55,894 nucleotides of DNA from an uncultured Aquitalea sp. (lineage in GTDB: Bacteria > Pseudomonadota > Gammaproteobacteria > Burkholderiales > Chromobacteriaceae): assembly GCF_945957525.1 (NCBI RefSeq), contig NZ_CAMFLA010000024.1:1-55894 (forward strand). The letters run 5' to 3'. Positions 9,916-55,816 of this stretch are shown one piece after another. Made by a program: the position numbers and the translations under genes. Positions within the stretch are counted from its first letter, which is position 1; every line of letters starts with the position of its first letter. Below the pieces are notes generated by a model. It was not told the DNA's origin. It was given only the letters and a program-made list of their open reading frames with translations, and did not search any database.

Positions 9916-9929
9916 AAGGTTGGCCGAAG
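9916..9929 (-). repeat. Dispersed word CTTCGGCCAACCTT (copy in pheS-rplT gap)
   Basis: The plus strand reads AAGGTTGGCCGAAG. It is one of about 15 near-identical copies in the window, and this one is intergenic. See the findings. Confidence 0.8.
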
Positions 9930-10024
9930 CCGCCCAGGCAACACAACGCCGGAACAAAAAGGCTGACCGCACTCTTGGCAGTCCGGTCAACGCTCTTGCG
10001 ACAACGCCGCTACTGGATCAAATG

Positions 10025-10052
10025 AAAAAAAAGGGAGGCATCAGCCTCCCTT
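10025..10052 (-). terminator. Terminator or attenuator between rplT and pheS
   Basis: A 9-bp stem (10031-10039 with 10044-10052, loop ATCA) is followed on the minus strand by eight T residues. It ends the infC-rpmI-rplT unit or controls read-through into pheST. Confidence 0.85.
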
Positions 10053-10067
10053 TTCACAGTCTTGCTA

Positions 10068-10424
10068 TCAAGCGAGGCAAGCTTTCGCCTTTTCAACGAT
10101 CTGGGCAAAAGCGGCCTTGTCGAACACGGCCAGATCGGCCAGAACCTTACGGTCGATTTCGATGGCGGCTTTCTTCAGACCGTTCATGAACTTGCTGTAC
10201 GGCAGACCGCATTCACGCGCAGCGGCGTTGATACGGGCAATCCACAGCTGACGGAACTGACGCTTTTTCTGACGACGGTCGCGGTAGGCATATTGACCCG
10301 CCTTCATCACCGCCTGTTTGGCGATGCGATAGACGTTCTTGCGACGGCCGCGATAGCCTTTCGCCAGGGCAAGGATTTTTTTGTGACGAGCACGTGCGGT
10401 TACACCGCGTTTTACGCGTGGCAT
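10068..10424 (-). CDS. rplT: 50S ribosomal protein L20
   Basis: The 118-aa L20 begins [26 protein letters not shown] and keeps the family's basic N-terminal extension and globular C-terminal domain. L20 is an early 50S assembly protein. In E. coli it also represses translation of rpmI-rplT by binding mRNA, and the same gene order makes that plausible here. It follows rpmI by 13 bp. Confidence 0.99.
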
Positions 10425-10437
10425 ATTTCAGGTCTCC

Positions 10438-10635
10438 TTAAGCGTAGGGCATCATGGCGCGAACAGAAGCCACGTTGGTAGCGTCCACCATGGAGGTGCC
10501 GCGCAACTGACGTTTGCTCTTGGTGGTCTTCTTGGTCAGGATGTGACGCTTGAAGGCGTGGGCACGCTTGAAACCACCGCCACCCAGTACTTTGAGACGC
10601 TTTTTCGCGCTCGACTTGGTCTTCATTTTCGGCAT
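10438..10635 (-). CDS. rpmI: 50S ribosomal protein L35
   Basis: This is a 65-aa basic protein, [20 protein letters not shown] and onward, with the conserved HILTKK and LRGT elements of L35. It is a structural component of the large subunit, lying between infC and rplT in the canonical order. Confidence 0.99.
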
Positions 10636-10740
10636 GGAAATGCTCCTGCTGAATTTTGTTTAGATTAGACGTACGGTGGCCCGAAGGCGCTTTGGACCGC
10701 AACGTCACGCTTTTAGAGGCTTTGAGGCCTACAAAATCAA

Positions 10741-10764
10741 CACGGCAGGAATGACCCTGCCGTG
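10741..10764 (-). promoter_or_regulatory. Hairpin in infC-rpmI leader, candidate L20 operator or attenuator
   Basis: A perfect 9-bp inverted repeat (CACGGCAGG / CCTGCCGTG, 6-nt loop) lies in the 151-nt gap between infC and rpmI. On the minus strand a TATAAT box (10781-10776) lies just upstream of it, but no good -35 was seen. L20-mediated control of rpmI in this gap is known in E. coli. Assigning this hairpin to it is inference. Confidence 0.45.
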
Positions 10765-14790: not shown

Positions 14791-14802
14791 CTTCGGCCAA
14801 CC
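14791..14802 (+). repeat. Dispersed word CTTCGGCCAACC (copy in tgt-yajC gap)
   Basis: Exact core match, intergenic. It is followed by CCGGCAAGGTTGG, so CCAACC and GGTTGG could form a small hairpin just upstream of the candidate yajC promoter. Confidence 0.8.
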
Positions 14803-18123: not shown

Positions 18124-18136
18124 TTTCGGCCAACCT
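18124..18136 (+). repeat. Dispersed word TTTCGGCCAACCT (copy in secF-dedA gap)
   Basis: Intergenic copy with a core match over TTCGGCCAACCT. Confidence 0.75.
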
Positions 18137-18966: not shown

Positions 18967-20862
18967 ATGAAACGCATCCATAAGCTACCCGATCATCTCG
19001 TCAACCAGATCGCCGCCGGCGAGGTGGTGGAACGCCCAGCTTCCGCGCTGAAAGAAATGCTGGAAAACAGCCTGGACGCCGGTGCGGACAAGATCACCGT
19101 GGATCTGGCGCAAGGCGGCATCAAGCTGATCCGCGTCACCGACAACGGCATCGGCATCGACAAAGACGATTTGCCGCTGGCGCTGGACCGCCACGCCACC
19201 AGCAAAATCCAGTCGCTGGACGATCTGGAACAAGTAGGCACGCTGGGCTTTCGCGGCGAAGGTCTGGCCAGCGTCGGTTCTGTGTCGCGGCTCACCCTCA
19301 CCAGCCGCCCCGCCGACAGTCCGCACGCGCACCAGATCATCGCCATCGACGGCGCCTTGCACCCGGTAGAGCCAGCCGCGCATGCGCCGGGCACCAGCGT
19401 GGAAGTGGTGGATCTCTACTTCAATACGCCGGCGCGCCGCAAATTCCTCAAGAGCGAAAACACCGAGTACGCCCACTGCGAAGCCACCTTCGAGCGCATC
19501 GCACTGGCCCATCCGCAGGTGGAGTTTCTGCTGCGCCACAACGGCAAGGTAGTCTGGCGACTGCCGGCGCAAAGCCTGGTGGACCGTGTCACTGCTCTGC
19601 TGGGCAAAGATTTCACCGCGTCCTCTCTGGCCGTCGAAACCGCCGCCGGCAAGATGACGCTGAGCGGCTTCATCGGCTCGCCCACCTATTCCAAGTCCAG
19701 CCGCGACGCGCAGTTTTTTTACGTCAATGGCCGCTTCGTGCGCGACAAGACCGCCCAGCACGCACTGCGCCAGGCTTACCGCGATGTACTGCATCACGAG
19801 CGCCATCCGGTTTATGCGCTGTTCCTCACCATGGATCCGGCAGGCGTGGACGTGAATGTGCACCCCACCAAGATCGAGGTGCGCTTCCGGGAAAGTCAGG
19901 CCATACACCAGTTTTTGTTTCACAGCCTCAACAAAGCCCTGGCCGGCACCAGCGCCGGCCTGACCGGGCCATCCGCCGCCGGCGCGTCGCCCGCAGAGTC
20001 AGCGCCGACGCAAGCCGCGCCGGACAGCCCGTTCGCCACACGCCCGGGCGCGCCCGCCAGCGGCGGCGCGCCGGCCCGCCAATTCGCCTACCAGCAACAG
20101 AGCATCCCGCTGCAGGTAGTGCGCGAATCCATCGGCATTTACGACAAGCTGTTCTCCGGTTTGCGCGAAGAAGAGCGCGCCGCGCCTTCGGCCAACCTTG
20201 ATGCGGATCCTGCGCCGGCCCTGCCTTCCATGCTGCCGGCAGCCGACATTGCCGCGCTGCCGCCCGCCAGCGAGGGCATGCCGCCGCTGGGCTTCGCGCT
20301 GGCGCAACTCCACGGCGTCTACATTCTCAGTCAGTGCGAAGAGGGGCTGATCGTGGTGGACATGCACGCGGCGCACGAGCGCATTGTGTATGAAAGGCTG
20401 AAAGCCGCCATGGAAACCGACGCCATCCCCATGCAACCGCTGCTGCTGCCGGTATCCTTTGCCGCCGACCGCATGGAAGTGGCCACCGTGCACGAGCATG
20501 GCGAAGCAATGAAGGCCTTGGGCGTAGAGTTGGCCACGCTGTCTCCCACCCAGCTGGCGGTGCGCGGCGTGCCGGTCTGGCTGAAGGACGGCAACCCGGT
20601 GGATCTGGCGCGGGCCGTGCTGAAAGACGTGCGCGAATTCGGCCTCAGCCGGGTGCTCACCGAGCGCCGCAACGAGCTGCTGGCCACCATGGCCTGCCAC
20701 GGCGCAGTGCGCGCAAACCGGCAATTGACACTGGCGGAGATGAACGCACTGTTGCGCGACATGGAGGCCACCGAGCGCTCCAACCAGTGCAATCACGGAC
20801 GCCCCACCTGGGCGCGGCTCACCATGAAAGACCTGGACAATCTCTTCATGCGCGGCCGTTGA
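18967..20862 (+). CDS. mutL: DNA mismatch repair protein MutL
   Basis: MutL couples MutS mismatch recognition to strand incision. The 631-aa protein has the GHKL ATPase domain with LVNQIAAGEVVERPASALKEMLENSLDAG (conserved Glu and Asn), DNGIGI and TLGFRGEGLASV, the transducer domain to about residue 325, a low-complexity Ala/Pro/Ser linker (about 325-430) and a C-terminal dimerisation domain. The linker is poor in conserved residues, as usual. I saw no DQHA-x2-E-x4-E endonuclease motif: the region reads VVDMHAAHERIVYE, which keeps part of it, so intrinsic nuclease activity is uncertain. The start at ATG 18967 matches the family N-terminus (MKRIHKLPDHLVNQIAAG). Confidence 0.97.
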   Translation: MKRIHKLPDHLVNQIAAGEVVERPASALKEMLENSLDAGADKITVDLAQGGIKLIRVTDNGIGIDKDDLPLALDRHATSKIQSLDDLEQVGTLGFRGEGLASVGSVSRLTLTSRPADSPHAHQIIAIDGALHPVEPAAHAPGTSVEVVDLYFNTPARRKFLKSENTEYAHCEATFERIALAHPQVEFLLRHNGKVVWRLPAQSLVDRVTALLGKDFTASSLAVETAAGKMTLSGFIGSPTYSKSSRDAQFFYVNGRFVRDKTAQHALRQAYRDVLHHERHPVYALFLTMDPAGVDVNVHPTKIEVRFRESQAIHQFLFHSLNKALAGTSAGLTGPSAAGASPAESAPTQAAPDSPFATRPGAPASGGAPARQFAYQQQSIPLQVVRESIGIYDKLFSGLREEERAAPSANLDADPAPALPSMLPAADIAALPPASEGMPPLGFALAQLHGVYILSQCEEGLIVVDMHAAHERIVYERLKAAMETDAIPMQPLLLPVSFAADRMEVATVHEHGEAMKALGVELATLSPTQLAVRGVPVWLKDGNPVDLARAVLKDVREFGLSRVLTERRNELLATMACHGAVRANRQLTLAEMNALLRDMEATERSNQCNHGRPTWARLTMKDLDNLFMRGR

Positions 20863-22978: not shown

Positions 22979-22992
22979 AAGTTGGCCGAAGG
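22979..22992 (-). repeat. Dispersed word, one-base variant (sbcB-miaA gap)
   Basis: The plus strand reads AAGTTGGCCGAAGG, which is CCTTCGGCCAACTT on the minus strand, one base from consensus. Intergenic. Confidence 0.7.
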
Positions 22993-23076: not shown

Positions 23077-24054
23077 ATGACCGATACCCCGCGCGCCCTG
23101 CTGTTGATGGGCCCCACTGCCTCCGGCAAGACCGGCCTCGCGCTGGCGCTGGCCCAGCGCTTTCCCGTGGAGATTGTCAGCGTGGACTCGGCTCTGGTGT
23201 ACCAGGGCATGGACATCGGCACCGCCAAGCCCAGCGCGGAGGAAATGGCGGTCTGTCCGCATCACCTGATCGACATCATCGATCCGCTGCAAACCTACTC
23301 GGCCTCGCGCTTTCATGCCGACGCCAATCGTCTGATCGCCGACATCCACGCGCGCGGCAAACTGCCGGTGCTGGCCGGCGGCACCATGCTCTACTACAAG
23401 GCGCTGCTGGAAGGCTTATCCGACCTGCCGCAAGCGGATGCCGAGCTGCGCGCCCGGCTGGACGCGGAAGCGGCGGAGCTGGGCTGGCCGGGCATGCACC
23501 GCAAGCTGGCGGCGCTGGACCCGGACACCGCCGCCCGCCTCAATCCCAACGATTCGCAACGCATCCACCGCGCACTGGAAGTCTGTCTGATCAGCGGCCA
23601 GCCCATGTCCGCGCTGATTGCTCGCGGCAAAGAAGCCGCCGCCAGTTTCCGCTTCCTGCCGCTGGCGCTGGCGCCCGAACAGCGCGGCTGGCTGCACGAA
23701 CGCATCGCGCTGCGCTTCCGGCTGATGATGGAGCAGAATTTTCTGCAAGAAGTGCGCACGCTTCGGCAAACCTGGCCGGCGTTGACGCCGGACCTGCCCT
23801 CCATGCGCTGCGTGGGCTACCGTCAGGCCTGGGATTATCTGGACGGTGCCTGCAGCGAGGCGGAATTCATCGAACGCGGCATCGCCGCCACTCGCCAGCT
23901 GGCCAAGCGGCAGCTCACCTGGATGCGCAGCCTGGACGTGCTGCCGGTGAACGCGCAACGCCCGGATGTGGAAACCGCCGTGCTGGACGCTTGCGAACGT
24001 TTCCTCGCCGGCCGCGACATGGCGGACAATCTGGTGTATCGCGGCGCCTTCTGA
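23077..24054 (+). CDS. miaA: tRNA dimethylallyltransferase
   Basis: MiaA transfers the dimethylallyl group to A37 of tRNAs reading UNN codons. The start ATG 23077 gives 325 aa beginning [23 protein letters not shown] with the P-loop. [24 protein letters not shown]-like [13 protein letters not shown], the GGTMLYY motif and [13 protein letters not shown] are all family hallmarks. It ends a plus-strand repair and modification cluster. mutL-miaA linkage is common in proteobacteria, with tdk and sbcB lying between them here. Confidence 0.97.
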
Positions 24055-25268: not shown

Positions 25269-26207
25269 CTACCCGGCCTCGCCGGTCAACGCCTCGGGGG
25301 CTGCCGGCGCCAGCTTCTGCAGCTCGGCGGATTGGGCCAGAATCAGCTGCCAGACCCTTTCCGCCACTGGCGACAAACCGTGGCGTTTACGACGAATCAG
25401 CATGATGGTGCGCTGGCGATAGGGCAGCAGCGGCAGCAGGCGCACCGGCGAGCCTTCCGGCACGGGCAGCGCCAGCCCCGGCGTCACCGTCACGCCCACG
25501 CCGGCCGCCACCAGCCGGAATACCGAGGTGGAGTGCCCCAGCTGCTGCGCCACCGGGCAGTGCGCACCGTATTCGCCCAGCAAGCGATCTATCAGACTGC
25601 GACTGCCGGACTGGTAATCCAGCAACACCAGCTTTTCACCGTGCAGTTGCCGCCACGCCACCGACGCCATGGCGGCGAAACGGTGGTCATTGCGACACAG
25701 TAGCCAGAAGCCGTCCGTCAGCAGCGGCCGGCAGTCGAGGTCGTCCAGATCATCCGCCTCCACCACGATGCCAAAATCTACCTCACCGGCGCGCACGCTA
25801 TCGATATTGAGTTTCTGCACCTGATCATGTACTTGCAGGTGCACCGAGGGCAGTTGCGCCCCGCAGGCGGCCAGAATGGCCGGCATCAGCCCACCGGACA
25901 GCGTGGGGCTGGTGGCCACGTGCACCGTGCCCTGCTCGCCTTCGGCCAACCTGCGGGTTTCCTCCAGCACCTGATCCAGTTGCTCCAGCTGCCGGCTCAG
26001 CGCCAGATAAAAACGTCGGCCGATATCGGTCAGCGCCACTTCGCGCGTGGTGCGGTCAAACAGCCGCACCGCCAGCTCGGCCTCCAACTCGCGAATGCTG
26101 CGGCTGACGGCCGATTGGGACAGGCCGATGGCGTCGCCGGCGCGACCGAAACCCTGCTGCCGCGCCACCGCCAGAAAGACTTCCAGTTGCCGCAAACGAA
26201 CATTCAT
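25269..26207 (-). CDS. LysR-family transcriptional regulator
   Basis: The 312-aa protein has the LysR N-terminal helix-turn-helix (RQLEVFLAVARQQGFGRAGDAIGLSQSAVSRSIRELEAEL, residues 6-45) and a C-terminal periplasmic-binding-like effector domain (about 90-295). It is transcribed away from a bile-acid:sodium-symporter-type gene, the arrangement in which LysR proteins usually control the divergent gene. Two copies of the palindrome ATCAATTGAT lie in the shared gap. The effector cannot be inferred. Confidence 0.93.
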   Translation of the reverse strand: MNVRLRQLEVFLAVARQQGFGRAGDAIGLSQSAVSRSIRELEAELAVRLFDRTTREVALTDIGRRFYLALSRQLEQLDQVLEETRRLAEGEQGTVHVATSPTLSGGLMPAILAACGAQLPSVHLQVHDQVQKLNIDSVRAGEVDFGIVVEADDLDDLDCRPLLTDGFWLLCRNDHRFAAMASVAWRQLHGEKLVLLDYQSGSRSLIDRLLGEYGAHCPVAQQLGHSTSVFRLVAAGVGVTVTPGLALPVPEGSPVRLLPLLPYRQRTIMLIRRKRHGLSPVAERVWQLILAQSAELQKLAPAAPEALTGEAG

Positions 26208-27310: not shown

Positions 27311-27324
27311 AAGGTTGGCCGAAG
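27311..27324 (-). repeat. Dispersed word CTTCGGCCAACCTT (copy in transporter-uvrB gap)
   Basis: The plus strand reads AAGGTTGGCCGAAG. Perfect copy, 17 bp after the stop of the transporter gene. Confidence 0.8.
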
Positions 27325-35494: not shown

Positions 35495-36052
35495 TCAGCG
35501 CTCCTTCGGCAAACCATCCAGAGCTTCCGCCACCGAAGCGATGCGGGCAAAGCGGCCGGCCAGCACCAGTTCGGTTTTCTCGCGAATCTCCGCCGGCGAG
35601 TAGCGCTTGCCGCTGAACGGGTGGGTCATAGCAAAGGTGAGCGTGGCCTCGCTGACAAAATCCACCTGATAGCCCAGATCGGAGGCCACGCGAGTGGTGG
35701 TTTCACAGCATTGCTCGGTACGAATGCCACACACCAGCAGTTTGCCGATGCCGCGCTCGGTCAGCCACTCATGCAGACCACTGCCGATCATGGCATTGTG
35801 CACATGTTTGATGAAAATGGCATCCGGCGCGTCCGGCAGCCAGGCTTGCGCCCGCACCAGCCCGGAGGCTTGGTCAAACGGATACTCGCCGTCCTCGTGC
35901 AAGACTTGCACCACCGGCACGCCGCGCTCGCGTGCGCCAGCTATCAGCGCCGACACCGCCTGCCGGAACGCGGGCAGCCCGCTTTCTTCCCAATAATCCC
36001 TGTGCAGGAAAGAGTCTTGCACATCGATCACCAACAATGCCGCCTTGCTCAT
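35495..36052 (-). CDS. Isochorismatase-like cysteine hydrolase
   Basis: The 185-aa protein starts at ATG 36052 with AGGAG 7 nt upstream (MSKAALLVIDVQDSFL). The family triad is visible: Asp in VIDVQ (about residue 10), Lys in IFIKHVHNAM and Cys in GIRTEQCCETT (about 118-125). Relatives hydrolyse amide or vinyl-ether bonds (nicotinamidase, N-carbamoylsarcosine amidase, isochorismatase). The precise substrate is unknown. It heads a minus-strand group with DUF1272, EamA and GlxA-type genes. Its last codons contain a copy of the dispersed word (35503-35515). Confidence 0.88.
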   Translation of the reverse strand: MSKAALLVIDVQDSFLHRDYWEESGLPAFRQAVSALIAGARERGVPVVQVLHEDGEYPFDQASGLVRAQAWLPDAPDAIFIKHVHNAMIGSGLHEWLTERGIGKLLVCGIRTEQCCETTTRVASDLGYQVDFVSEATLTFAMTHPFSGKRYSPAEIREKTELVLAGRFARIASVAEALDGLPKER

Positions 36053-38673: not shown

Positions 38674-39107
38674 ATTCGCACTGGTATTTTTGGCCGGGCA
38701 GCTGGCGAACCATCTGGCAACCCGACCACCGCAGACGATGCCAACTGCGCGGCAAAGCACTGCCTAGCAATGGCGGCTTTGCTTGCCCTCTTCCCCGCAT
38801 CCCCGGCAAGCATGGCCAACTCACCCGCGATGGAAACGTTGCCGCCGCGACGCGAATACCCAGAAACGTCTTAGAACCGGCTGCGGTTTTTCTTCCATTT
38901 TCATCGGTGAAGGCCTATCAATAAAAGCACGGACATGCCAGATGCATCGCCCGTCGCCAAGCCCGGCTCCGTTAGAATGAGCCCTTGCGCGCACCATAAG
39001 GACAAAAGCCGACATCGACCGCCCCTGCCGCGCACGACGCCAGGCGGCGCCCGGCGAGGAGGCGTAGCCCGTGACGCACAATCGTTCAATGATCAGGATT
39101 GCGCCAC
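38674..39107. other. Gene-free region upstream of the c-di-GMP enzyme
   Basis: I see no credible gene, RNA gene or terminator here. The open frames have no family resemblance. A TTAGAAT box near 38973 could be a -10 element, but no matching -35 was found. Confidence 0.5.
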
Positions 39108-42100
39108 ATGCCGATGCATGAATGGAATCTGCCACGAGAGTCGGAACTGGCGCGGCTGGACAAACTGCACCTACCCATCGCCGGGCTGCTGCGCCAGTGG
39201 GATGACGGCGGCGATCGCGATGCGGCACTGTGCGCGCGCCTGCGCGAGGCCTTCGGCCAACTGTTCCACCAAGAGGACGCGCTGATTCATCGTTGCGGGC
39301 TGGAAAGCGCAGCGGCAGACGGCCACCTTGCCGAACACCAACAACTGCTGGAAAAGATCGACACGGCGCTGAGCGAGCCCGGAGACGCCGCCCATGACGC
39401 GCTGCGCGGCGCGCTTCGGCACTGGCGGCGACGCCACCGCGACAGCCATGATCTCTTGTTGCGCTATGCCGCATCTTCGCTGGAACACGAACAGCAGCGC
39501 CAACGCGAAGCACATCAGCGCGAATGGCGCTGCGCGCACGCCATCAACCGCCTGCTCGCCGCCCCCGGCGAACTCTCAACCGCCCTGCAGCAAATAGCAG
39601 AGCTGCTGCCCGCCGGCCTCGGCTGGCCACCCGCCTGCGGCATCCACCTGCTGTTTCGCCAATGGCATGTCTGCAGCGAAGCCTACGATGCAGACCGCAC
39701 CCGCCTGCACATAGCCCTGCTGGTGGACGGACAAGTGGCCGGCGACCTCGAGCTGAGCCTGGCCGGCGATGAGACGGATTCCACCTTTCTGGCTACCGAA
39801 AGCGAACGCCTGTACCGCTTGGCGCAGTGCCTGGAGCAGGCGCTGGAACAGCGCGAACGCAGGCAACAGGCAGACCGGCAAAACGCGGAATTCCGCATCG
39901 CCATGGAAAACGCCGCCGACGCCACCATCGTCACCGACACTCGCGGCCGTCTGAGCTACGCCAACAACGCTGCCTGCAATCTGCTGGGCTATACGCGCGA
40001 GCACATGCTGCGCCTCAACCTCACCGACCTGAGCCCGCCGGAAGAAATGCCGCGCCATTTGCGCGAGTTTCAGGCGCTGCAGCACAACGGCTTTTTACGC
40101 GGAGAGTTCAGGTTGCGCCGGCAAGATGGACGCAGCCTGATCATGGAACTGAACGGCGTCCCCCTGCCCGAGCAGCGCTACCTTATCAGCGGCCGCGACA
40201 TCACTGCCAGCACCCTGGCGGAGAACGCGCTGCGCGAATCAGAAGACCGCTTTCGCACCATTGTCGAAGCCACTGGCGACGGCATTCTGGTGTCAGAGAA
40301 ATCCAGCGGCCGCTTTATTTTCGCCAATCAGGCCATGTGCCAGATGCTGGGCTACACCAGCGGCCAGCTGACTGGCCTCAGCATGCCGCACATCCACCCC
40401 GACAGCGAGTTGCCAGACATCCGTAAAACCATGCGCCAGATGAATGAGGGCCGGCTGGCCATCGCCTCGGAGATTCCGGTAAAGCGCCGCGACGGCAGCC
40501 TGTTCTACGCCGACGTCAAAAGCTCTCCCATCCGTTTTGGCCAGACACCCTGCCTGATGGCGGTTTTCCGTGACGTCAGCGAACGGCGCGAAGCCGAACT
40601 GCTGCTGAAGCGCCACCTGGACATCCAATCCCTGTTGGGCACGCTGTCCACCCAACTGGCCAACGACCCGATCGAAACCCTGTGGGACCGTCTGCCGGAC
40701 ATGCTGGGCCGAGTGGGCAGCATGCTGCATGCCGACCGGGGCTGCCTGATACGGCTTGACCGGCTCAAGCGCAGCAGCCTGTTGACGCACTTGTGGCAGA
40801 AAACGGGCGAAGACGGCCTGCCCTTGCCCAATGCCCTGAATATTCCCACCAGCGGCATGGATTGGCTGTGCGGCGAACTGGAGCGCCAGGGCTTCCTGAC
40901 AGTAGACGCCGACACCAGCCTGCCGGCGGAAGGCGGCACCCTCAAAGCGCTGATGCGCGTCAACGGCAGCCGCTCGCTGCTGATCGCACCCCTGCGTCAG
41001 CAGCAGGAGATCAGCCAACTGATCATCATGGATTGCCAGAGCGACCGACACTGGCTATGGATTGAAAGCCGCATGCTGCAGTCGGTGGCGGAAATGCTGG
41101 CTGGCTCGATCGAACAGTACTACCGCACGCTGGAGCTGACCGAAAGCCGTCGCCGTTTGCTGGAAGCCCAGCGCATTGCGCGCGTGGGCAGCTGGGAATG
41201 GGACATCCTGCACGACAGCATGCACTGGTCTGAAGAGGTGTACAGCATTGCCGGGCTGCATGCGGAGCAAATCGACAGCAGCTACGACAATTTCCTCGGA
41301 CTGATCCACCCGCAGGACAGCAAACTGGTGCGCCAGGCCATCAACCGCTCGCTGGAGAGACTGACGCCGCTAGAACTGGAGCATCGCATCATCCGTCCGG
41401 ACGGCAGCGAACGGGTGGTGTGCCAGCAGGCCATCGTGCGCGTGTCGGACAACGGGCGCGCCTTGCGCATGACCGGCACCTTGCAGGACATCACCGAAGC
41501 CAAGCAGAAGGAACTGCTGCTGCGCCAATCAGCCACGGTCTACGAAAATACGCTGGAAGGCGTGATGATCACCGACCGCGATCTCAGCATTCTCGACGTC
41601 AACCCGGCTTTCAGCCAGATTACCGGTTACAGCCGGCAGGAAATCATTGGCAAAAATCCGCGAGTGCTGCAGTCCGGCAAGCACGACCACCATTTCTACC
41701 AGCAAATTCACGAATCCATCCGCGTCACCGGCCACTGGCAGGGCGAAATCTGGAACCGGCGCAAAAACGGCGACATCTACCCGGAATGGCTGACCATCAG
41801 CGCGGTATACGACGATCAGCGCGTCGTCACCAATTATGTTGGCGTGTTTTCCGACATCAGCCAGATCAAGAAATCCGAGTCCGATCTGGAAAAGCTGGCG
41901 CACTTTGACTCGCTCACCGGCCTGCCCAATCGCCTGTTGTTCCTGTCCCGTCTCGATCACGCGATCGAAAACGCCAAGCGCAGCGGCGCAGGCGTCGCCA
42001 TCCTGTTTATCGATCTGGACAACTTCAAACAGGTCAACGACACCCTGGGCCACAGCACCGGCGACCGGCTACTGCTGGAAGTGGCCACCCGCCTGAAGAC

Positions 42101-43211
42101 CTGCGTGCGCAAGTCCGACACCGTGGCGCGCATCGGCGGCGACGAGTTTCTTGTGCTGCTGGAAAACCAGTCTTCGGACAACCCGGCGATAGACATCGCC
42201 GCCAAGCTGGTGGCCGCTTGCGGCAAGCCCTTCTTGCTGGACGGCCACGAAATGATGGTGACCGCCAGCATCGGCATCAGCCTGTTCCCGCGCGATGGCC
42301 TGGATGCGGAAACCCTGATGCGCAATGCCGATATCGCCATGTACCAGTCCAAGGCCGAGGGCAAATCCTGCTTCCACTTTTATACCGAAGAGCTCACCCG
42401 TCACGCCATGTTGCGGGTAAAGATGGAGCAGGAGCTGCGTACTGCCCTGCGGCGCAAACAACTGCACCTAGCCTTGCAACCCAAATACCGGCTGACCGAC
42501 GGCAAACTCAGCGGCGCCGAGGTGCTGCTGCGCTGGCACCACCCGGATTTGGGACGCGTGCCGCCGGATGTGTTCATCCCGCTGGCGGAAGAGACGGGGC
42601 TCATCATTCCCATTGGCGCATGGACCCTTCGGCAAACCTGCCTGCTGATACGCAAATGGCTGGACATGGGCCTGACACCGGGCATGATCAGCATCAACAT
42701 CGCCGGACCGCAGATCCGCCGCGCGCCCTTGCAGGAAACCCTGCAGCACGCGCTGAACGAATTCCGCCTGTCGCCGGAACAGCTGGATCTGGAAGTCACC
42801 GAATCCTTCGTCATGCACCGCCCGGATGAGAGCCTGAAAGTGCTGCGCAATTTGCGCGAGCTGGGCGTTAACCTCTCCATTGACGACTTCGGCACCGGCT
42901 ACTCCTCGCTCGCCTATCTCAAGCAACTGCCCATCCAGACCCTGAAAATCGACAAATCCTTCGTCCGCGGCCTGCCGCACAACGAAAACGATGTCGGCAT
43001 CTGCCGCGCCATCATCTCGCTGGCCCGCACCATGCACATGCAACTGGTGGCGGAGGGTATTGAGACCGAGGAGCAACTGCGTTTTCTGGTGGAGGAAGGT
43101 TGCGAGTTCGGCCAGGGCTACCACTTTGCCAAACCCATGTCGGTGGAAGACTTCGAGGCCTTGCTGCAATCCAGCCGCATCAGTGAGCGCCTGCAGAGCA
43201 TCAGCCGCTAA
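39108..43211 (+). CDS. Hemerythrin-like/GAF/PAS diguanylate cyclase-phosphodiesterase (GGDEF-EAL)
   Basis: This multidomain c-di-GMP signalling protein of about 1367 aa starts at ATG 39108 (CAGGA 9 nt upstream). Residues about 15-120 look like a bacteriohemerythrin fold: LDKLH (H21), E56, HLAEH (H73, H77) and HRDSHD (H110, D115). The first HF-x2-EE histidine is Leu52, with His54 close by. A GAF-like segment (about 140-250), two PAS (about 262-500), a GAF (about 505-680) and two more PAS (about 690-930) follow. GGDEF is intact (RIGGDEF, about 1010). The EAL domain reads EVL, but keeps the RW, ITES-like EVTES, DDFGTGYSSLAYL, KIDKSFV, EGIE and GQGY residues, so both activities are possible. No membrane segment is visible. 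Confidence 0.93.
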   Translation: MPMHEWNLPRESELARLDKLHLPIAGLLRQWDDGGDRDAALCARLREAFGQLFHQEDALIHRCGLESAAADGHLAEHQQLLEKIDTALSEPGDAAHDALRGALRHWRRRHRDSHDLLLRYAASSLEHEQQRQREAHQREWRCAHAINRLLAAPGELSTALQQIAELLPAGLGWPPACGIHLLFRQWHVCSEAYDADRTRLHIALLVDGQVAGDLELSLAGDETDSTFLATESERLYRLAQCLEQALEQRERRQQADRQNAEFRIAMENAADATIVTDTRGRLSYANNAACNLLGYTREHMLRLNLTDLSPPEEMPRHLREFQALQHNGFLRGEFRLRRQDGRSLIMELNGVPLPEQRYLISGRDITASTLAENALRESEDRFRTIVEATGDGILVSEKSSGRFIFANQAMCQMLGYTSGQLTGLSMPHIHPDSELPDIRKTMRQMNEGRLAIASEIPVKRRDGSLFYADVKSSPIRFGQTPCLMAVFRDVSERREAELLLKRHLDIQSLLGTLSTQLANDPIETLWDRLPDMLGRVGSMLHADRGCLIRLDRLKRSSLLTHLWQKTGEDGLPLPNALNIPTSGMDWLCGELERQGFLTVDADTSLPAEGGTLKALMRVNGSRSLLIAPLRQQQEISQLIIMDCQSDRHWLWIESRMLQSVAEMLAGSIEQYYRTLELTESRRRLLEAQRIARVGSWEWDILHDSMHWSEEVYSIAGLHAEQIDSSYDNFLGLIHPQDSKLVRQAINRSLERLTPLELEHRIIRPDGSERVVCQQAIVRVSDNGRALRMTGTLQDITEAKQKELLLRQSATVYENTLEGVMITDRDLSILDVNPAFSQITGYSRQEIIGKNPRVLQSGKHDHHFYQQIHESIRVTGHWQGEIWNRRKNGDIYPEWLTISAVYDDQRVVTNYVGVFSDISQIKKSESDLEKLAHFDSLTGLPNRLLFLSRLDHAIENAKRSGAGVAILFIDLDNFKQVNDTLGHSTGDRLLLEVATRLKTCVRKSDTVARIGGDEFLVLLENQSSDNPAIDIAAKLVAACGKPFLLDGHEMMVTASIGISLFPRDGLDAETLMRNADIAMYQSKAEGKSCFHFYTEELTRHAMLRVKMEQELRTALRRKQLHLALQPKYRLTDGKLSGAEVLLRWHHPDLGRVPPDVFIPLAEETGLIIPIGAWTLRQTCLLIRKWLDMGLTPGMISINIAGPQIRRAPLQETLQHALNEFRLSPEQLDLEVTESFVMHRPDESLKVLRNLRELGVNLSIDDFGTGYSSLAYLKQLPIQTLKIDKSFVRGLPHNENDVGICRAIISLARTMHMQLVAEGIETEEQLRFLVEEGCEFGQGYHFAKPMSVEDFEALLQSSRISERLQSISR

Positions 43212-43388: not shown

Positions 43389-46300
43389 TCAGGCCAGCAA
43401 GTGGTTGTTGAGCTCGCGCATGCCGGCTGACAGCATGGCCAGATCCAGCGAGCTGAAAGACTGCAGCTCGGCAAACATCTGGTAGCACACGTCCAGCTCG
43501 CCGCGTCGCTTGGTCAGCCAGACATCTGCGAAGGCCTTGTCGGCCGACGCCTCGCTCAGCGCCAGCTTGCTCAGCTTGCGATGCAGGCGATACAGATCAT
43601 CGCGCAGCGCGGAGCGGGCCAGCGACTGCCAGCGGTTGTCGCGCGGCAGGCCGGTAATGGCGTCGCGCAGCCAGTCCAGTTGCAGCGTGCGGCCAAGCTG
43701 GTAGTAGTTTTGCGCCACTTCATCCAGCGTCAGCTCGCCGCCTTCGGCGATTTCGATGATGTCCATCAGTGGTACGGCGAACTCCAGACGAGCCAGCACG
43801 CTGGCCAGATCCTTCGGCATGTTCGCCATGTCCAGACGGGCTTCCAGCTCGGCCACGGCCGGGTACTGGGCAGCGGACACCAGCGCCGGCAGCTTGGCCA
43901 GCAGCGCTTGCACCTTGTCGGCGTACTGGGCAATGACGGCGTTCACCGAGGTGAACGGACGCTTGTTGCGCAGCACCCAGCGGGTAACACGCTCGATCAG
44001 CGTGCGCACCAGCACCATCATCTGCATCTGTTGGTCGGCCGGGATCAGGTTGTCCAGCGCCTCGATGCGGCCCCACAGGCTTTCCGCGTTGAACACGCGG
44101 CTGGCGATCCACCATGCGCGGGCGATGTCGGCCGCGGAGAACGGCGATTCCTCCTGCAGGCGGAACACAAAGGTGGTGCCCATGCGGTTGATGATCTGGT
44201 TGGCCAGCTGGTTGGCGATGATCTCGCGCTTCAGCTGATGCTGTTCCATCTGTTTGCCGAAGCGCTCTTGCAGCGGTTTCGGGAAGTAGTTCACCAGCAC
44301 CGGCAGGAAGTCGGCGTCATCCGGCACATCCGTCGCCAGAATGGCCTGATCCAGCGAAATCTTGCTGTAGGCCAGCAACACGGCGATCTCCGGCACGGTC
44401 AGACCCTGGCGGGCCAGGCGACGCTCGTTGATCTGGGTGTCGGACGGCAGGTACTCGATCTCGCGATTGAGTTCACCGGTCTTTTCCATGTGCGTGATCA
44501 TGCGGGCGTGGGTGGACAGCATGGACGCCGCCTCCAGCCGCTTGATGGCCAGCACCTGGGTTTGCAGCACGTTGTTGCGCAGCACCAAATGCCCCACTTC
44601 GTCGGTCATTTCAGCCAGCAACTCATTCCGCTGTTTCAGCGTCATGTCGCCGGCCTGCATGACCGCGCCCAGCAGGATCTTGATGTTCACCTCGTGGTCG
44701 GAGCAATCCACGCCGGCGGAGTTGTCGATGGCGTCAGTGGCGATGCGGCCGCCAGCCAGCGCAAACTCGACGCGACCCAACTGGGTGCAGGTGAGGTTGC
44801 CGCCTTCCGCTACAACACGGGCTTGCAGCTCGTTGCCGTTGACGCGCACCGGATCATTGGCGCGGTCGCGGGCGTCGGCGTGGCTCTGGCTGGAGGCCTT
44901 GATGTAGGTGCCGATGCCGCCGTTGTACAACAAGTCGATCTTGGCCTTGAGGATCTCGTGGATCAGCTCGTTCGGCGCCATGTGATCCTTGTCAGTTTCC
45001 AGCCATGCCTTCACTTCCGGCGACAGCGGGATGGACTTGGCGGAGCGCTCGAAAATGCCGCCGCCCTTCGAGATCAGTTCGCGGTTGTAATCGGTCCAGC
45101 TGGAACGCGGCAGATTGAACAGACGCGCGCGCTCGGCGAAGCTCGCCTTGGCGTTGGGCGTCGGGTCCAGGAAGATGTGCAGGTGGTTGAACGCCGCCTT
45201 CAGGCAGATGTGCTCCGACAGCAACATGCCGTTGCCGAACACGTCGCCGGCCATGTCGCCGATGCCGATAACGGAGAAATCCTGCTCCTGGGTGTTGACG
45301 CCCAAGTGACGGAAGTGGCGTTTTACCGACTCCCAGGCGCCGCGCGCGGTAATGCCCATGCCCTTGTGGTCGTAACCGGCGGAACCGCCGGAAGCGAAGG
45401 CGTCGCCCAGCCAGAAGCCGTAGGCTTCGGAAATGCCGTTGGCGATGTCGGAGAAGGTGGCGGTGCCCTTGTCGGCCGCTACCACCAGATACGGATCATC
45501 CGGGTCCAGGCGACGCACGTCGACCGGCGGCACGATCTGACCGCTCACCAGATTGTCGGTCACGTCCAGCAACGCGGAAATGAAGATCTTGTAGCAAGCG
45601 ATGCCTTCGGCGAGGAAGGCTTCGCGATCGCTCGGCGCCGGCAATTGCTTGCCGACAAAACCACCCTTTGAACCCATCGGCACGATCACGGAGTTCTTCA
45701 CCATCTGCGCCTTCACCAGGCCCAGCACCTCGGTGCGGAAGTCCTCCATGCGGTCCGACCAGCGCAGACCGCCGCGCGCCACCTTGGAGCCGCGCAGATG
45801 CACGCCTTCAACACGCGGGCTGTACACCCAGATTTCGAACATCGGGCGCGGCTGCGGCAGGAAAGGCACTGCGCCGGATTCCAGCTTGAAGGACATATAG
45901 GACTTGAACTGGCCGTCCTTGTCCTTCTGCCAGAAGTTGGTGCGGCGGGTCGCCAGAATCACGGACAGGAAGCCGTTGAGGATGCGGTCTTCGTCCAGGT
46001 TGGCCACGTTGTCCAGCAGCGTCTTCACTTCGGCCAACAGGGCCTCGGCGCGGGCGTCGTCGGCCTTGACCGGGTCCAGACGGGCTTCGAACAGGCCCAC
46101 CAAGCGTCGGGTGATGTCTGGGTAATTGGCGACACACTGCTCGAGATAGCTCTGGCTGAAAGTCAGGCCGCCCTGGCGCAGGTACTTGGCCAACGCGCGC
46201 ACCAGCGAGATTTCGCGCCAGTCGAGCCCGGCAATCAGCGCCAGACGGTTGAAGCCGTCATTTTCGCAACGCTTGGCGAACACTTGCGCCAGCAGCTCCT

Positions 46301-49704: not shown

Positions 49705-49716
49705 CTTCGGCCAACC
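49705..49716 (+). repeat. Dispersed word CTTCGGCCAACC (copy in aotJ-aotQ gap)
   Basis: Exact core match in non-coding DNA about 85 bp before the aotQ start. Confidence 0.8.
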
Positions 49717-51241: not shown

Positions 51242-52030
51242 ATGACTGCAAATGCTTCGGCCAACATCAAGCTGCAGGTGACCGATCTGCACAAAAGCTA
51301 CGGCGACCACGAGGTACTCAAGGGCGTGTCGCTTACCGCCCACGCCGGCGACGTCATCAGCATCATCGGCTCTTCCGGCTCCGGCAAGAGCACCTTCCTG
51401 CGCTGCATCAACCTGCTGGAACATCCCAACAGCGGCACCATCCAGGTAACCGGCGAAGAGCTGAAACTGGCCGCCGACAAGAAAACCGGCTATCTGAAAG
51501 CCGCCAGCCACAAACAACTGGAGCAAGTGCGCACCAAACTGGCGATGGTGTTCCAGCACTTCAATCTGTGGGGGCACATGACGGTGCTGGAAAACATCAT
51601 CGAAGCCCCCATTCACGTGCTGGGCCTGTCGCGCGACGATGCCATCGTCCGCGCGCGCAAGTATCTGGACAAGGTGGGCCTGAAGGATGCCGAGCACAAA
51701 TACCCGGCTCACATGTCCGGTGGGCAGCAGCAACGCGTGGCCATTGCCCGCGCGTTGGCGATGGAGCCTGAAGTGATGCTGTTTGACGAGCCCACTTCGG
51801 CGCTGGACCCGGAACTGGTGGGCGAAGTGCTGCGCGTGATGCAGGACCTGGCGCGCGAGGGCCGCACCATGGTGGTAGTGACACATGAAATGGGTTTTGC
51901 CCGCGAGGTGTCCAACCACGTGATTTTCCTGCACAAGGGCAAGATCGAAGAGCAAGGCAATCCGAAGGAAGTGCTGGTCAATCCCAAGAGCGAGCGGCTT
52001 GCACAATTCATCTCCGGCAGTCTTAAATAA
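51242..52030 (+). CDS. aotP: Basic amino-acid ABC transporter ATP-binding protein (AotP/HisP type)
   Basis: This ATPase of 262 aa starts at ATG 51242 (GAGGAAAAC upstream). Walker [10 protein letters not shown] is near residues 41-49, the Q-loop in [10 protein letters not shown], the ABC signature [15 protein letters not shown] near 158-172, Walker [13 protein letters not shown], and the H-loop VVVTHEMGF. The [16 protein letters not shown] region is typical of HisP. It powers import of the amino acid delivered by AotJ. The aotO gene found between aotM and aotP in Pseudomonas is absent. Confidence 0.95.
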
Positions 52031-52115: not shown

Positions 52116-53096
52116 ATGGGTCATCAGCCGCACGCTGCCAAACCGCTACGTTACGGTTTTCTCCTGCTCCCGCACGCCTCCATGGCGGACTTCGCCATTG
52201 CCAGCGAGGTGCTGACCCGTGCCAACCAGTTGGCCGAAAAGCGCCTGTACGAATTCCTGCCCCTGTCGCTGGACGGCCAGCCAGTGGTCATGTCCAACGG
52301 CATGAAACTGGCAGTGGATCTTCCGCTCAACTACGCCCCAAAGCTGGATGCATTGTTTGTACTGGCCGACGACCTCGGCGCGGACATCAATCAGGATGAA
52401 CTGAGCAAGGGCCTGAGCAGCCTGCACCCGGACAAGCTGCCCATCTCCGCCATCGGTTGCGGCAGTTACTGGCTGGCCCGCGCCGGCTTGCTCAACGGCT
52501 ACCGCGCCACCATCCACTGGCAGGAAATCAATCGCTTCACCGAAGAATTCCAGGATGTGATCGTCACGTCCAATCTCTACGAAGCCGACCGCAACCGATC
52601 CAGTTGCGCCGGTGGTGCGGCAACGCTGGATTTCCTGCTGTCCACCGTGGGCTCGCAACACGGCCACGAATTCGCCTCCCGCTTGTCCGAGCTGTTCAGC
52701 ACCGAACGCATTCGCCCCGGCAGCGACAGGCAGCGCATCCCGCTTGCCACCCGCATCGGCGGCAGCCAACCCAAGCTGACGGAAGCGGTCAGCCTGATGG
52801 AAGCCAATATCGAAGAGCCGCTCACCACTGACGACATCGCCTATTACGTGGGCGTATCGCGCCGTCAGCTGGAGCGCCTGTTCAAGCAGTATCTCAACAC
52901 CGTACCCTCCAAATACTATCTGGAGCTGCGCCTGCGCAGGGCGCGGCAATTGCTGCAGCAAACCAGCAAGTCCATCGTGCAAATCGGTCTGGCCTGCGGC
53001 TTTTCCAGCGGTCCGCACTTCTCCAGCACCTACCGCAATCACTTCGGCATCACGCCGCGCGAAGAGCGTGCCCAGCGCACGCAACAGGCTGGCTGA
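52116..53096 (+). CDS. argR: ArgR-type AraC-family regulator of arginine catabolism
   Basis: The 326-aa protein is GlxA-like: a DJ-1/PfpI-type N-terminal domain (about 12-190) and an AraC DNA-binding domain (about 215-318). The stretch from LTEAVSLMEANIEEPLTTDD through VSRRQLERLFKQYLN and YYLELRLRRARQLLQQ closely resembles, from memory, P. aeruginosa ArgR, which is encoded at the end of the aot operon and activates arginine catabolism and gdhB. Here it has the same position after aotP and faces gdhB across the operon. It is unrelated to the hexameric E. coli ArgR. The DNA-recognition part is better conserved than the sensor part. Confidence 0.88.
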   Translation: MGHQPHAAKPLRYGFLLLPHASMADFAIASEVLTRANQLAEKRLYEFLPLSLDGQPVVMSNGMKLAVDLPLNYAPKLDALFVLADDLGADINQDELSKGLSSLHPDKLPISAIGCGSYWLARAGLLNGYRATIHWQEINRFTEEFQDVIVTSNLYEADRNRSSCAGGAATLDFLLSTVGSQHGHEFASRLSELFSTERIRPGSDRQRIPLATRIGGSQPKLTEAVSLMEANIEEPLTTDDIAYYVGVSRRQLERLFKQYLNTVPSKYYLELRLRRARQLLQQTSKSIVQIGLACGFSSGPHFSSTYRNHFGITPREERAQRTQQAG

Positions 53097-53120
53097 TGCA
53101 CGCTGTTCAGCTCCAAAAGC

Positions 53121-53158
53121 AAACGCCGGCGGCACAATGTGCCACCGGCGTTGTTTAT
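53121..53158. terminator. Terminator between argR and the histidine kinase gene
   Basis: AACGCCGG and CCGGCGTT, extended by GGCACA/TGTGCC, form a long hairpin followed by TTGTTTATTT. It also has A-rich sequence on the left. Confidence 0.85.
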
Positions 53159-53183
53159 TTCAGGCTTGGCAGGACTGCCAATA

Positions 53184-55433
53184 TCAGGCCTTGTCCAACC
53201 TGGCTGCAGGTTGCTGGCTTTGCTGCAATATCGTGGGCGACAAGGGCAGCTCAATGCAGAAGCACGCCCCGCTGGCGGGAATATTCACCGCACTGATCAG
53301 CCCGCCATACTGCTCGACGATGGTCTGGCAGATCGACAAGCCCAGCCCCATGCCGTTGGGCTTGGTCGAGAAGAACGGGTGGAACAACACTTCCAGCGAC
53401 TCCGGCGAGATGCCGCGCCCGGTGTCGCGCACTTCCAGAATCGCCTTGCTGCCTTCGCGCCGGGTGTGAATGATGATATGGCGCTTCATCATTGGTTCAT
53501 CCTTCAACGCATCCATGGCATTGGACAGCAGATTAAGCACCACCTGCTCCATCTGAATGCTGTCCGCCATCACTACCATCGGATACACCGACAGCAACTG
53601 CACCATTTCGATACCGCGCTCCTTGAGATCGTACTCCGCCAGGAACATGCAGTTGCCCACCACCTGGTTCAGATCGATCAGCCGGGTCTCCACCGCCCGC
53701 TTGCTCACCAGCGCGCGCAAGCGCTTGATGATTTCGCCCGCCCGATCGGCCTGTGCCACGGCAAGACGCAAAGCGGATTCGATCTGCGGCCGCGTCTCCT
53801 CAACGCTATCCAGCAACTGCAAGGACGCCTGGCAATAATTGGAAATGGCGGTCAGCGGCTGATTCACCTCATGCGCAATACCCGAAGCCATCTCGCCCAT
53901 GGTGTGCAAGCGCGCCACATGCGACAACTTCTCCAGGTGCTCTTTCACCCGCAACTCGCTGGCTTCCAGCGCTTCTGCCGCGCGCATGCGCACCGGTCCC
54001 ATATCGCGCAAGGCGCAGACCACGCCATTCAGCGCGCCACTGCGAGAGAATAGCGGCGCTACCGCGCCTTCCACCAGACGGACATGGCCCTTCGCCGTTG
54101 TCAGCTGCATGCGATCAGGCAACTCCACCGGTTTGGCTTCGCGGTAACACTGCGACACTGGGTCTTCGGCCAACTCTGCAGACAACTCGCCAATCAAGCG
54201 AAACACCTTGTGAAAGGGCTGCCCCACCACCTCAGCAGGCTCCATCCCCAACAAGGTCAGCGCCATGGGATTGGCCATCTCTATCACCTGCTCCTGATTG
54301 AGCGTGATCACGCCGTCATGTACGGCATTGAGCGTCACAGCGGCCCGTTCGCTCTGCAGATACAAAGCTTCGTCGGCCTGCGTCTGCACCTTGAGCATGG
54401 CGATTCGCTGCGAGTAGACCAGCCAGAACGACAGCACCAGCAGCAGTATCAGCGCCTCGCGCACCAGTAAGCCGCCGAGCCTGATATCGCTGAAATACAG
54501 ATCACGCGATACCTTGAGCGAAAACGGCTGCGTATCGCTGCTCAACGGCAGCGTTACCTCAAAATGACGCAGCGCCGGCAACCACTCCCTGGCCCCGCGC
54601 TTACTCTCAGAACCAAACAAGCGCTCCCCGCGCGCATCGCGAGACTGAATCGCCAGATCCAGATCCTGCGGCACACTGTCCGTCAGCGAGCCGGACAGCA
54701 GCTTATCGCAATAGACCAGCAAGGCCACCATGCCCATCAAGCGGCCATTGCGCGCATCCGCGCTCAACTCATGCCCAGGTCCGAGATAAACCGGCTTCAT
54801 CAGCAAATACACCTTGCCGCCCTCATACAGATCAAAGGGCTTGGAGGCCACCTTCTGCCCTGTCACGATCGCTCTGCGCACCTCGGGTGCAAAGTAGGGA
54901 TCATGCAATACGTCATAACCGTATACCGAACTTGCCGCAGGAATATCTGGTTCGATCATGGTGACCACCAGATGCTGGTCTCTGACTGGCGAAGGAGACC
55001 AAGCGCGCTTGCCGCGGATATCGAAATCCCGGATGAAGAAGGTATCGCCGAAGCGCTCCTCCATCTGCTCGACAAATTGCGTACGCTCATCCCGATTCAC
55101 ATTCTGCAAGAACTCCACGGTATACAACTGCGGATAGTGACTAAGAATGTGATGGGAAAAGGTTTTCAGCACCGGCATATCAAACTTTTGCCGTGACATC
55201 AGCAATGCGTCCAGCGCTGCCAACACTGATTCGTTCTGATCAAGCTTGCGGGCAACGGCGCTCTGCGCCAAGCGCGCTCCCCTGTCGAACTCCTCCTGCA
55301 CGCGCTGGTACTCAGACACCATCCACTGGATGCCTATCAGCAGCGAAGCCCCCATCCAGAGCAGGATGAAAAAGTGGTAACGGCGGCGCAGAATCCTTCT
55401 CCCCGGTTTGGTAAGTGTGGCAAAGCATAGCAA
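53184..55433 (-). CDS. CHASE-PAS sensor histidine kinase (FixL-like transmitter)
   Basis: This membrane kinase has about 749 codons. TM1 is at about residues 20-40, a periplasmic CHASE-type domain follows (about 50-310, with YPQLYTVEFLQNVNRDER and FFIRDFD), TM2 is at about 325-345, and a PAS domain is at about 365-485. HisKA carries the phospho-acceptor in GEMASGIAHEVNQPLTAISNY, and HATPase_c has N (LNLLSNAMDAL), G1 (DTGRG) and G2 (GMGLGLSI) boxes. No response regulator lies next to it in the window. The start is uncertain: the only upstream in-frame option is TTG 55433 without an SD, while GGGGAGAAGG precedes in-frame ATT/CTG codons near 55394-55391. Confidence 0.9.
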   Translation of the reverse strand: MLCFATLTKPGRRILRRRYHFFILLWMGASLLIGIQWMVSEYQRVQEEFDRGARLAQSAVARKLDQNESVLAALDALLMSRQKFDMPVLKTFSHHILSHYPQLYTVEFLQNVNRDERTQFVEQMEERFGDTFFIRDFDIRGKRAWSPSPVRDQHLVVTMIEPDIPAASSVYGYDVLHDPYFAPEVRRAIVTGQKVASKPFDLYEGGKVYLLMKPVYLGPGHELSADARNGRLMGMVALLVYCDKLLSGSLTDSVPQDLDLAIQSRDARGERLFGSESKRGAREWLPALRHFEVTLPLSSDTQPFSLKVSRDLYFSDIRLGGLLVREALILLLVLSFWLVYSQRIAMLKVQTQADEALYLQSERAAVTLNAVHDGVITLNQEQVIEMANPMALTLLGMEPAEVVGQPFHKVFRLIGELSAELAEDPVSQCYREAKPVELPDRMQLTTAKGHVRLVEGAVAPLFSRSGALNGVVCALRDMGPVRMRAAEALEASELRVKEHLEKLSHVARLHTMGEMASGIAHEVNQPLTAISNYCQASLQLLDSVEETRPQIESALRLAVAQADRAGEIIKRLRALVSKRAVETRLIDLNQVVGNCMFLAEYDLKERGIEMVQLLSVYPMVVMADSIQMEQVVLNLLSNAMDALKDEPMMKRHIIIHTRREGSKAILEVRDTGRGISPESLEVLFHPFFSTKPNGMGLGLSICQTIVEQYGGLISAVNIPASGACFCIELPLSPTILQQSQQPAARLDKA

Positions 55434-55438
55434 GAGCA

Positions 55439-55545
55439 GCTAACACAACCTTGTCGAGGTCCTGAGCCAAGGCACGCAACCACAATCAGTACACGAAGTA
55501 CGACAAGGAAACGCAACGCAGGATCTGGGGTTTTGTCAGCGAGCC
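55439..55545 (+). repeat. Dispersed ~105-bp element, copy 2
   Basis: It is in inverted orientation relative to the copy at 49491-49595 and starts 6 bp upstream of the most distal possible start of the histidine kinase. The shared blocks keep their order, with a few small indels. Confidence 0.75.
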
Positions 55546-55801
55546 TAAGCCGGCGCATAAGCAAGGAAGACATTGTATAACGCTCCGACCATCATCGATA
55601 TCGTATGTCTGCGTATGTCTTTTTACTTGCCATTGGAACGGGGCATCCCCTCCTCCAGACAGCCTGAGAGCTCGCTAATTTTTATGAAATATACATGCTG
55701 TTTGCCGAAGAGGCTGGCAAGGAGGCCAAAGACCCGATAGGGAGGCGGCGCAGAAGCCGTGCGTTGGCCAGGGTCTGTACGGGTAGCGACGACAGGTCGG
55801 G

Positions 55802-55816
55802 AAGGTTTGCCGAAGG
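55802..55816 (-). repeat. Dispersed word CCTTCGGCAAACCTT (copy near window end)
   Basis: The plus strand reads AAGGTTTGCCGAAGG, the A-variant of the word. Intergenic. Confidence 0.8.

Follow-up and report, generated by a model that had tools for sequence, protein, structure and literature searches.

Uptake sequences are described for two bacterial families, Neisseriaceae and Pasteurellaceae, in the available text of PMC12616744, where the receptor of the Pasteurellaceae uptake signal sequence (USS) is a predicted one, ComN. The DNA uptake sequence (DUS) of Neisseriaceae occurs as eight dialects, all of which share an invariant CTG at +6 to +8 and an invariant A at +10 (excerpts of PMC3630211 and PMC7371117). 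Mutants of the Neisseria DUS were intolerant at +6 to +8, and +9 and +10 were less important (excerpt of PMC3630211). Frye et al. (2013) name five genomes lacking an obvious DUS (those of Laribacter hongkongensis, Lutiella nitroferrum 2002, Pseudogulbenkiania NH8B and two Chromobacterium), and list over-represented 10-mers in their Table S1D (PMC3630211). This study concerns a word dispersed through a 55,894-nt stretch of DNA from an uncultured Aquitalea sp. of the Chromobacteriaceae (contig NZ_CAMFLA010000024.1; hereafter the window) and through the genome to which it belongs. The word is best written AG-GTT(G/T)GCCGAA-G, on the opposite strand from the word given in an earlier sequence-only reading of the window. 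Sequence comparisons make it a candidate DNA uptake sequence with new dialects, and it is very probably one. The uptake-sequence interpretation, already put forward in the sequence-only reading, is supported by an excess over models, intergenic enrichment, a lack of intergenic strand bias, dialects in related genera, a ComP ortholog, and the covariation of a ComP loop with the word. Among the matches listed from the titles and opening lines of abstracts of open papers (a set without subscription papers, bioRxiv and supplements), none reports the word or a Chromobacteriaceae uptake sequence.

The word resembles the Neisseriaceae DUS in many respects. Both are 10-mers with AG preferred at -2/-1, and G+1, G+4, C+6, G+8, A+9 and A+10 are in common with AG-DUS. 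In most bearing genomes the copies number roughly a thousand or more, lie on both strands, and are over-represented both in and between genes. Lineage dialects exist in both families, the GCA ending in Chromobacteriaceae paralleling the +9 A-to-C change of king3DUS, and an orthologous ComP is encoded. Intolerance at +6 to +8 is common to the word and to the mutants of the Neisseria DUS, whereas variants at +9 and +10, which mattered less in those mutants, are not raised here. Other differences are the CCG core, G at +10 in one genus (g4), a ComP without the second disulfide, and the scarcity of close inverted pairs, which in Neisseriaceae are reported as terminators. It is doubtful that there is no relation to the Neisseria DUS, as the earlier reading held, since the word, read as AGGTTGGCCGAA, is identical, in register, at 9 of 12 positions to AG-mucDUS, AGGTCGTCTGAA (muc letters derived from the description in the available text of PMC3630211). 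The Pasteurellaceae USS resembles the word in the way it works, as a short dispersed self-word that biases uptake, and differs in sequence and lineage.

The dispersed word in the genome and the window

In the whole genome (4.05 Mb), TTCGGCMAACC occurs 914 times, against 6 for the reversed word, with 457 copies on each strand of contigs whose orientation is arbitrary; GTTKGCCGAR occurs 2021 times, against 61 for its reversal. Further counts come from 844 kb of this genome (788 kb of stretches plus the window), in which 761 genes were called with a simple hexamer model. In an unbiased ranking of this sample, GTTGGCCGAA was the most over-represented 10-mer (294 vs 3.3 expected); the T form of the word reached 135, also against 3.3. 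The sample holds 429 core sites, of which 91 (21%) are intergenic, compared with an intergenic share of 12%. Coding copies numbered 336, whereas 60 synonymous-codon shuffles gave 23.6 +/- 5.5 (maximum 37), and the 91 intergenic copies compare with 0.9 (maximum 4) in 20 Markov-1 simulations. The sequence-only reading had named two contrary outcomes, namely counts explained by codon or oligonucleotide bias and absence of the word from intergenic DNA elsewhere; what was found is an excess over both Markov and codon models, and ample intergenic copies.

Among variants differing from the G form by a single base, those changed at +6 to +10 stayed within 2.6-fold of expectation, while those with C at +1 or +3, T at +4, or C or T at +5 were raised at least 4-fold. 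At 403 sites outside the window, flanking conservation was 51% for A at -2, 45% for G at -1 and 77% for G at +11.

In the window, all 14 exact TTCGGCMAACC sites reported earlier were recovered, and 100 dinucleotide shuffles yielded 0.13 on average and 2 at most. The reported one-base variant near 22980 is also present, on the minus strand. Simple gene calls placed 7 of these 15 sites in intergenic DNA, the same number as before, counting site 55805, which is so close to the window end that a gene running past it would escape calling. Allowing up to one mismatch gave 30 sites, against 2.8 expected. The dispersed word is therefore real, but its better unit is the 10-mer GTTKGCCGAA (reverse complement TTCGGCMAAC), the trailing CC(T) of the earlier form being partly conserved. 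As the earlier reading held, coding copies are read in several frames (e.g., RLAE, SANL, LRQT, RFAE and GLPK). Across the window the 10-mer occurs 26 times:

1748..1757, +, core word TTCGGCCAAC in gene 845-2656 (-) for a chemotaxis-type protein, reading KLAEK
3644..3653, +, core word inside called gene 3440-3661 (-)
7971..7980, +, core word inside pheT (-), reading KLAED
9919..9928, -, intergenic core word + CC, upstream of pheS
14792..14801, +, intergenic core word + CC, downstream of tgt
18125..18134, +, intergenic core word + CC, downstream of secF
20187..20196, +, core word + CC inside mutL, reading PSANL
22981..22990, -, intergenic core word, one-base variant of the 11-mer, between the exonuclease I and IPP transferase genes
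23762..23771, +, core word, A form, inside the IPP transferase gene, reading LRQTW
25941..25950, +, core word inside a LysR-type gene (-), reading RLAEG
27314..27323, -, intergenic core word, between an SBF-like transporter gene and the uvrB 3' end
31095..31104, -, core word, A form, inside a GNAT acetyltransferase gene, reading RFAEG
33478..33487, +, core word inside an AraC/DJ-1 type regulator gene (-), reading RLAEA
33781..33790, +, core word inside the AraC/DJ-1 type regulator gene that holds the 33478 copy, reading RLAES
35505..35514, +, core word, A form, inside an isochorismatase-domain gene (-), reading GLPKE
37239..37248, +, core word inside called gene 37231-38673 (+)
39252..39261, +, core word inside PAS-GGDEF-EAL gene 39099-43211 (+)
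42628..42637, +, core word, A form, inside PAS-GGDEF-EAL gene 39099-43211 (+), reading LRQTC
44252..44261, -, core word, A form, inside the 1603-aa called gene 43389-48200 (-)
46029..46038, +, core word inside the 1603-aa called gene 43389-48200 (-), reading LLAEV
49706..49715, +, intergenic core word + CC, preceding an ABC permease gene
51256..51265, +, core word inside called gene 51242-52030 (+)
52229..52238, -, core word inside called gene 52116-53096 (+), reading QLAEK
54165..54174, +, core word inside called gene 53184-55355 (-), reading ELAED
55700..55709, -, core word, A form, in no called gene, near the window end
55805..55814, -, core word, A form, + CC, in no called gene, near the window end

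Individual copies in the window lie in mutL and beside uvrB and the exonuclease I gene, which are genome-maintenance genes. The 1603-aa open frame at 43389-48200 (-) had no NCBIfam match at E 0.001.

Dialects in Chromobacteriaceae

Genomes are cited by label where needed, under species and genus names assigned by matching counts and sizes (G008, A. magnusonii; G011, JH1-16; G013, Vogesella indigofera; G017, Craterilacuibacter sinensis; G019, P. subflava; G023, C. haemolyticum). Among 61 genomes of the family, 10 contained 285-2271 copies of GTTKGCCGAR and the other 51 contained 66-207. The bearers were the genome studied here, Pseudogulbenkiania (3/3), the JH1-16 genus (2/2) and genera g4 (2/2), g6 (1/1) and g10 (1/1). 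This contrasts with the survey of Frye et al. (2013), as three Pseudogulbenkiania genomes bear the word here; the Chromobacterium samples do not. The comparison with related genera that the sequence-only reading had suggested revealed the same word, or dialects ending in GAG or GCA, in six other Chromobacteriaceae genera.

Unbiased k-mer analysis identified GTTGGCCGAG as the GAG-ending dialect of g4 (49 copies in 80 kb of G021) and GTTGGCCGCA as the GCA-ending dialect of Vogesella (26 in 40 kb of G109). In samples pooled from 7 of 13 Vogesella genomes, GTTGGCCGCA occurred 77 times in 123 kb, against 0.9 expected, and all seven were positive; this pooled count is without overlap, and the 17 copies counted in G013 may include doubles where one short locus lies inside another. 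The GTTKGCCGAR and 11-mer patterns miss the GCA dialect. Among the sampled bearing genera, A at -2 is common to all and G at -1 to most, and the endings are GAA, GAG or GCA. Position +4 is G or T in the genome studied here, and +10 is A except in g4, where it is G. The same method yields ATGCCTGTCTGAA-type words in two Neisseriaceae genomes; these fit wadDUS, which is AT-DUS with T after +3 (PMC3630211), and they serve as a positive control.

No such word emerged by k-mers from 45-114 kb samples of two Aquitalea, two Chromobacterium, one Craterilacuibacter and two g8 genomes, the remaining genomes of these four genera being counted solely for GTTKGCCGAR and the 11-mer. The two sampled Aquitalea, of similar GC content, had background counts, and nine other Aquitalea genomes contained only 3-16 copies of the 11-mer, which is also background level. 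Outside the family no bearer was found, the largest count of GGTTGGCCGAR being 26, in 386 genomes of other families (399 were drawn from the order, 13 of them in-family). In g8, GTTKGCCGAR reached 207, 189 and 181 in G024, G033 and G101, against 44, 57 and 76 for the reversed word; these slightly raised counts are perhaps remnants.

By PheT, the nearest named relatives were Aquitalea magnusonii (80%) and Chromobacterium (79%), in a comparison from which the own or very near genomes were possibly left out. PheT trees place the genome studied here as sister to four sampled Aquitalea (support 100/99 and 99/99); G018, whose PheT is broken in the draft, is absent from them. The state of the word requires three changes on this tree, two of them forced by well-supported branches. 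Such a pattern would fit an old system that was repeatedly lost and, equally, repeated gain.

ComP and its alpha1-beta1 loop

The genome encodes a ComP ortholog (G000:C9:75210-75596) whose best matches in the Protein Data Bank are the Neisseria ComP chains 2m3k, 5hz7 and 2nba (E 2.0-2.7e-10); the next pilin follows at 3.6e-05. The gene closes a fimT-pilV-pilW-pilX-like cluster after polA (names assigned by eye), and its product is 37-48% identical to the ComPs of six relatives. A ComP profile was matched by all 61 family genomes at E 1e-8. The best matches were 8e-16 to 1e-17 in four Craterilacuibacter (G017, G025, G030 and G034) and 3e-24 or better in the others. Because their matches are far weaker than those of the other genomes, these four probably lack ComP. 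They thus combine the lack of a clear ComP ortholog with background GTTKGCCGAR counts, possibly a complete loss of the system. ComEC, which the genome studied here also encodes and which was found in 59 of the 61 genomes, is not discriminating, and the Pfam family ComP_DUS was useless as a marker on its own (38 of 41 genomes above the cut-off).

In an alignment of 53 family ComPs (none taken from the four Craterilacuibacter, G036, G086, G100 and G101), S[TN]x[WM]P was found in the alpha1-beta1 loop in 10/10 genomes with GAA- or GAG-ending words, and S[TN]x[WM] in 1/30 genomes of genera in which no dialect was found (the exception being Chromobacterium G095). This motif was chosen post hoc from the alignment and placed in the loop by counting along the Neisseria sequence ourselves; other alignment columns separate the groups equally or almost equally well, and the relatives are not independent. 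In the available text of PMC4906244 and PMC12061091, docking puts the alpha1-beta1 loop in the DNA grooves; the main regions indicated by nuclear magnetic resonance shifts are the DD region and the beta1-beta2 loop (PMC4906244, in excerpt). The ComP studied here has K where other Aquitalea have S, and both Neisseria structures also have K. In the Pseudogulbenkiania genus, G026 (84% complete) contains just 285 copies of GTTKGCCGAR, yet its ComP retains the S[TN]xWP loop; the low count possibly reflects a decaying system or a draft effect.

A set of 50 Neisseriaceae ComPs was assembled from 83 genomes (the 30 best matches plus 20 picked to include low-count genomes). S[TN]x[WM] was present in 35 of them, namely 28/30 (three read by eye) and 7/20. 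Genomes with the motif had at least 585 DUS-like words, as counted by a pattern that misses wadDUS, and the 15 without it had at most 792; two genomes overlap. In the Neisseriaceae genus g171, nine genomes (G528-G533, G535, G536 and G539) have low DUS-like counts and loops like KNKNSWP or KNGNSWP, and G537, which bears the same genus label, has 2103 DUS-like copies and the loop NSTTW.

Uptake sequence or another kind of site

An improbable alternative, although the best placed of those considered, is that a different DNA-binding protein (a nucleoid organiser, a methylase or a regulator) recognises the word and that ComP is incidental. Such a protein would suit the even spacing of the copies (variance/mean 0.55 in 83 windows of 10 kb, below random) and the many relatives that have ComP without the word. 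It is harder to reconcile with several lineage dialects that keep one register and, like AG-DUS, carry A at -2, and with a ComP loop that covaries with the presence of the word. The two word-free gaps exceeding 14 kb also argue against it: one contains ribosomal-protein, rpoA, secY and EF-Tu genes, and the other a chaperone-usher cluster with a Mutator-family transposase.

Still less probable is a site tied to replication or recombination, for example Chi or the FtsK-orienting polar sequences (KOPS), read by RecBCD or FtsK. Chi and KOPS are generally common to close relatives, whereas the sister Aquitalea are at background. The word is, like them, a short, dispersed oligomer and mostly genic, and its copies stand at 199 plus to 138 minus in stretches of negative GC skew (46:46 where the skew is positive). 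The bias among copies in genes follows the LAE/FAE reading that coding copies favour, with 220 on the opposite strand and 116 on the same strand. In a strand test, which the earlier reading had proposed, intergenic copies showed no clear preference (43:34 and 7:7, with GC skew as a proxy in draft contigs), and the genome totals are equal between strands within the limit given above. An apparent all-plus run in JH1-16 was discarded as a likely artefact; the G011 stretches are mixed in strand.

Remnants of mobile repeats (repetitive extragenic palindromes with their associated transposases, REP/RAYT, or insertion-sequence ends) and paired terminators would account for intergenic enrichment, but are very unlikely, since conservation fades beyond about three flanking bases, coding copies occur in several frames, and only 5 inverted pairs with a gap of at most 8 bp (6 within 60 bp) were found among the 429 sites. 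The dominance of LAE/FAE readings notwithstanding, a by-product of codon usage, amino-acid motifs or oligonucleotide bias has next to nothing in its favour, given the shuffled and simulated counts (24 vs 336 coding, 0.9 vs 91 intergenic) and the background level in two Aquitalea of similar GC.

If the word is a DNA uptake sequence, the minor pilin ComP on type IV pili would bind word-bearing double-stranded DNA better than other DNA. The pilus would draw the bound DNA in, ComEC would pass one strand into the cytoplasm, and homologous recombination would install it. Because word-bearing fragments would be imported preferentially, recombination would spread and repair the copies, which would build up to roughly one per 2 kb in all places where the sequence tolerates them, with relatives' dialects differing at the 3' end (GAA, GAG or GCA). 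The binding, the uptake and the copy-spreading drive are parts of this mechanism that we infer.

Several observations weigh against the uptake-sequence reading. The core at +6 to +8 is CCG instead of CTG, and the similarity to AG-mucDUS is modest, since among 20,000 shuffles of the letters 1.3% equal it; known dialects are matched at 8 of 12 positions by the T and GAG forms, which 7.7% and 6.6% of shuffles equal. Aligned sites are seldom shared (7/62 in genomes with GAA- or GAG-ending words and 4/90 in other genomes, 11 Vogesella sites being among the 90), and close inverted pairs are rare. ComP orthologs and ComEC also occur in word-less genomes. All 13 Vogesella ComPs have a different loop without S[TN]x[WM] despite the GCA dialect, which prevents the loop from serving as a general marker. 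In Chromobacterium G095 the loop motif is present, and an 8-kb sample contains no GTTGGCCG. In Neisseriaceae, G473 has 792 DUS-like words and no motif, and G503 has the motif with 585, possibly because the count pattern misses wadDUS. At the beta1 position, where the Neisseria DD region has a cysteine, the ComP studied here has none and hence lacks the second disulfide, which is reported as characteristic (PMC4906244, in excerpt) and as crucial for binding in gel shifts (PMC12061091, in excerpt). This ComP has three cysteines and the other nine ComPs that accompany GAA- or GAG-ending words have two, none at the beta1 position; the word-rich Neisseriaceae G249, G523 and G525 likewise lack the beta1 cysteine. 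Of Neisseria meningitidis R78, K94 and K108, which are named in the available text of PMC12061091 and numbered here by our own count from C76, only K94 has a basic counterpart (R). Since the CTG core and a double-disulfide ComP were looked for and are absent, the word is not filed among the eight Neisseriaceae dialects.

A broader proposal, which may equally well hold or fail, is that Chromobacteriaceae have a family-wide uptake language with the core CCG, probably of shared ancestry with the DUS, and a ComP without the second disulfide. Its dialects and several losses would track changes in the ComP alpha1-beta1 loop, so that a natural series of ComP-word pairs would expose the word-reading residues. 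If true, this would be a third family with uptake sequences, having three or more dialects as well as sister lineages at background counts. The way in which ComP recognises its word would become testable outside the Neisseria pathogens, and the CTG core, held to be conserved, would prove able to change. Pseudogulbenkiania and Vogesella are predicted to take up DNA with the right word better.

The stretch L148:7510-13651 (G000:C2) is without the word and lower in GC, and it carries chaperone-usher fimbria genes and a Mutator-family transposase; it is likely acquired DNA. In stretches L185-L188 of G018, the palindrome TGCTTAAGCA is strongly over-represented (18 vs 0.15 over both strands, hence nine sites in the 80 kb); it is another dispersed word and is unlike the uptake word.

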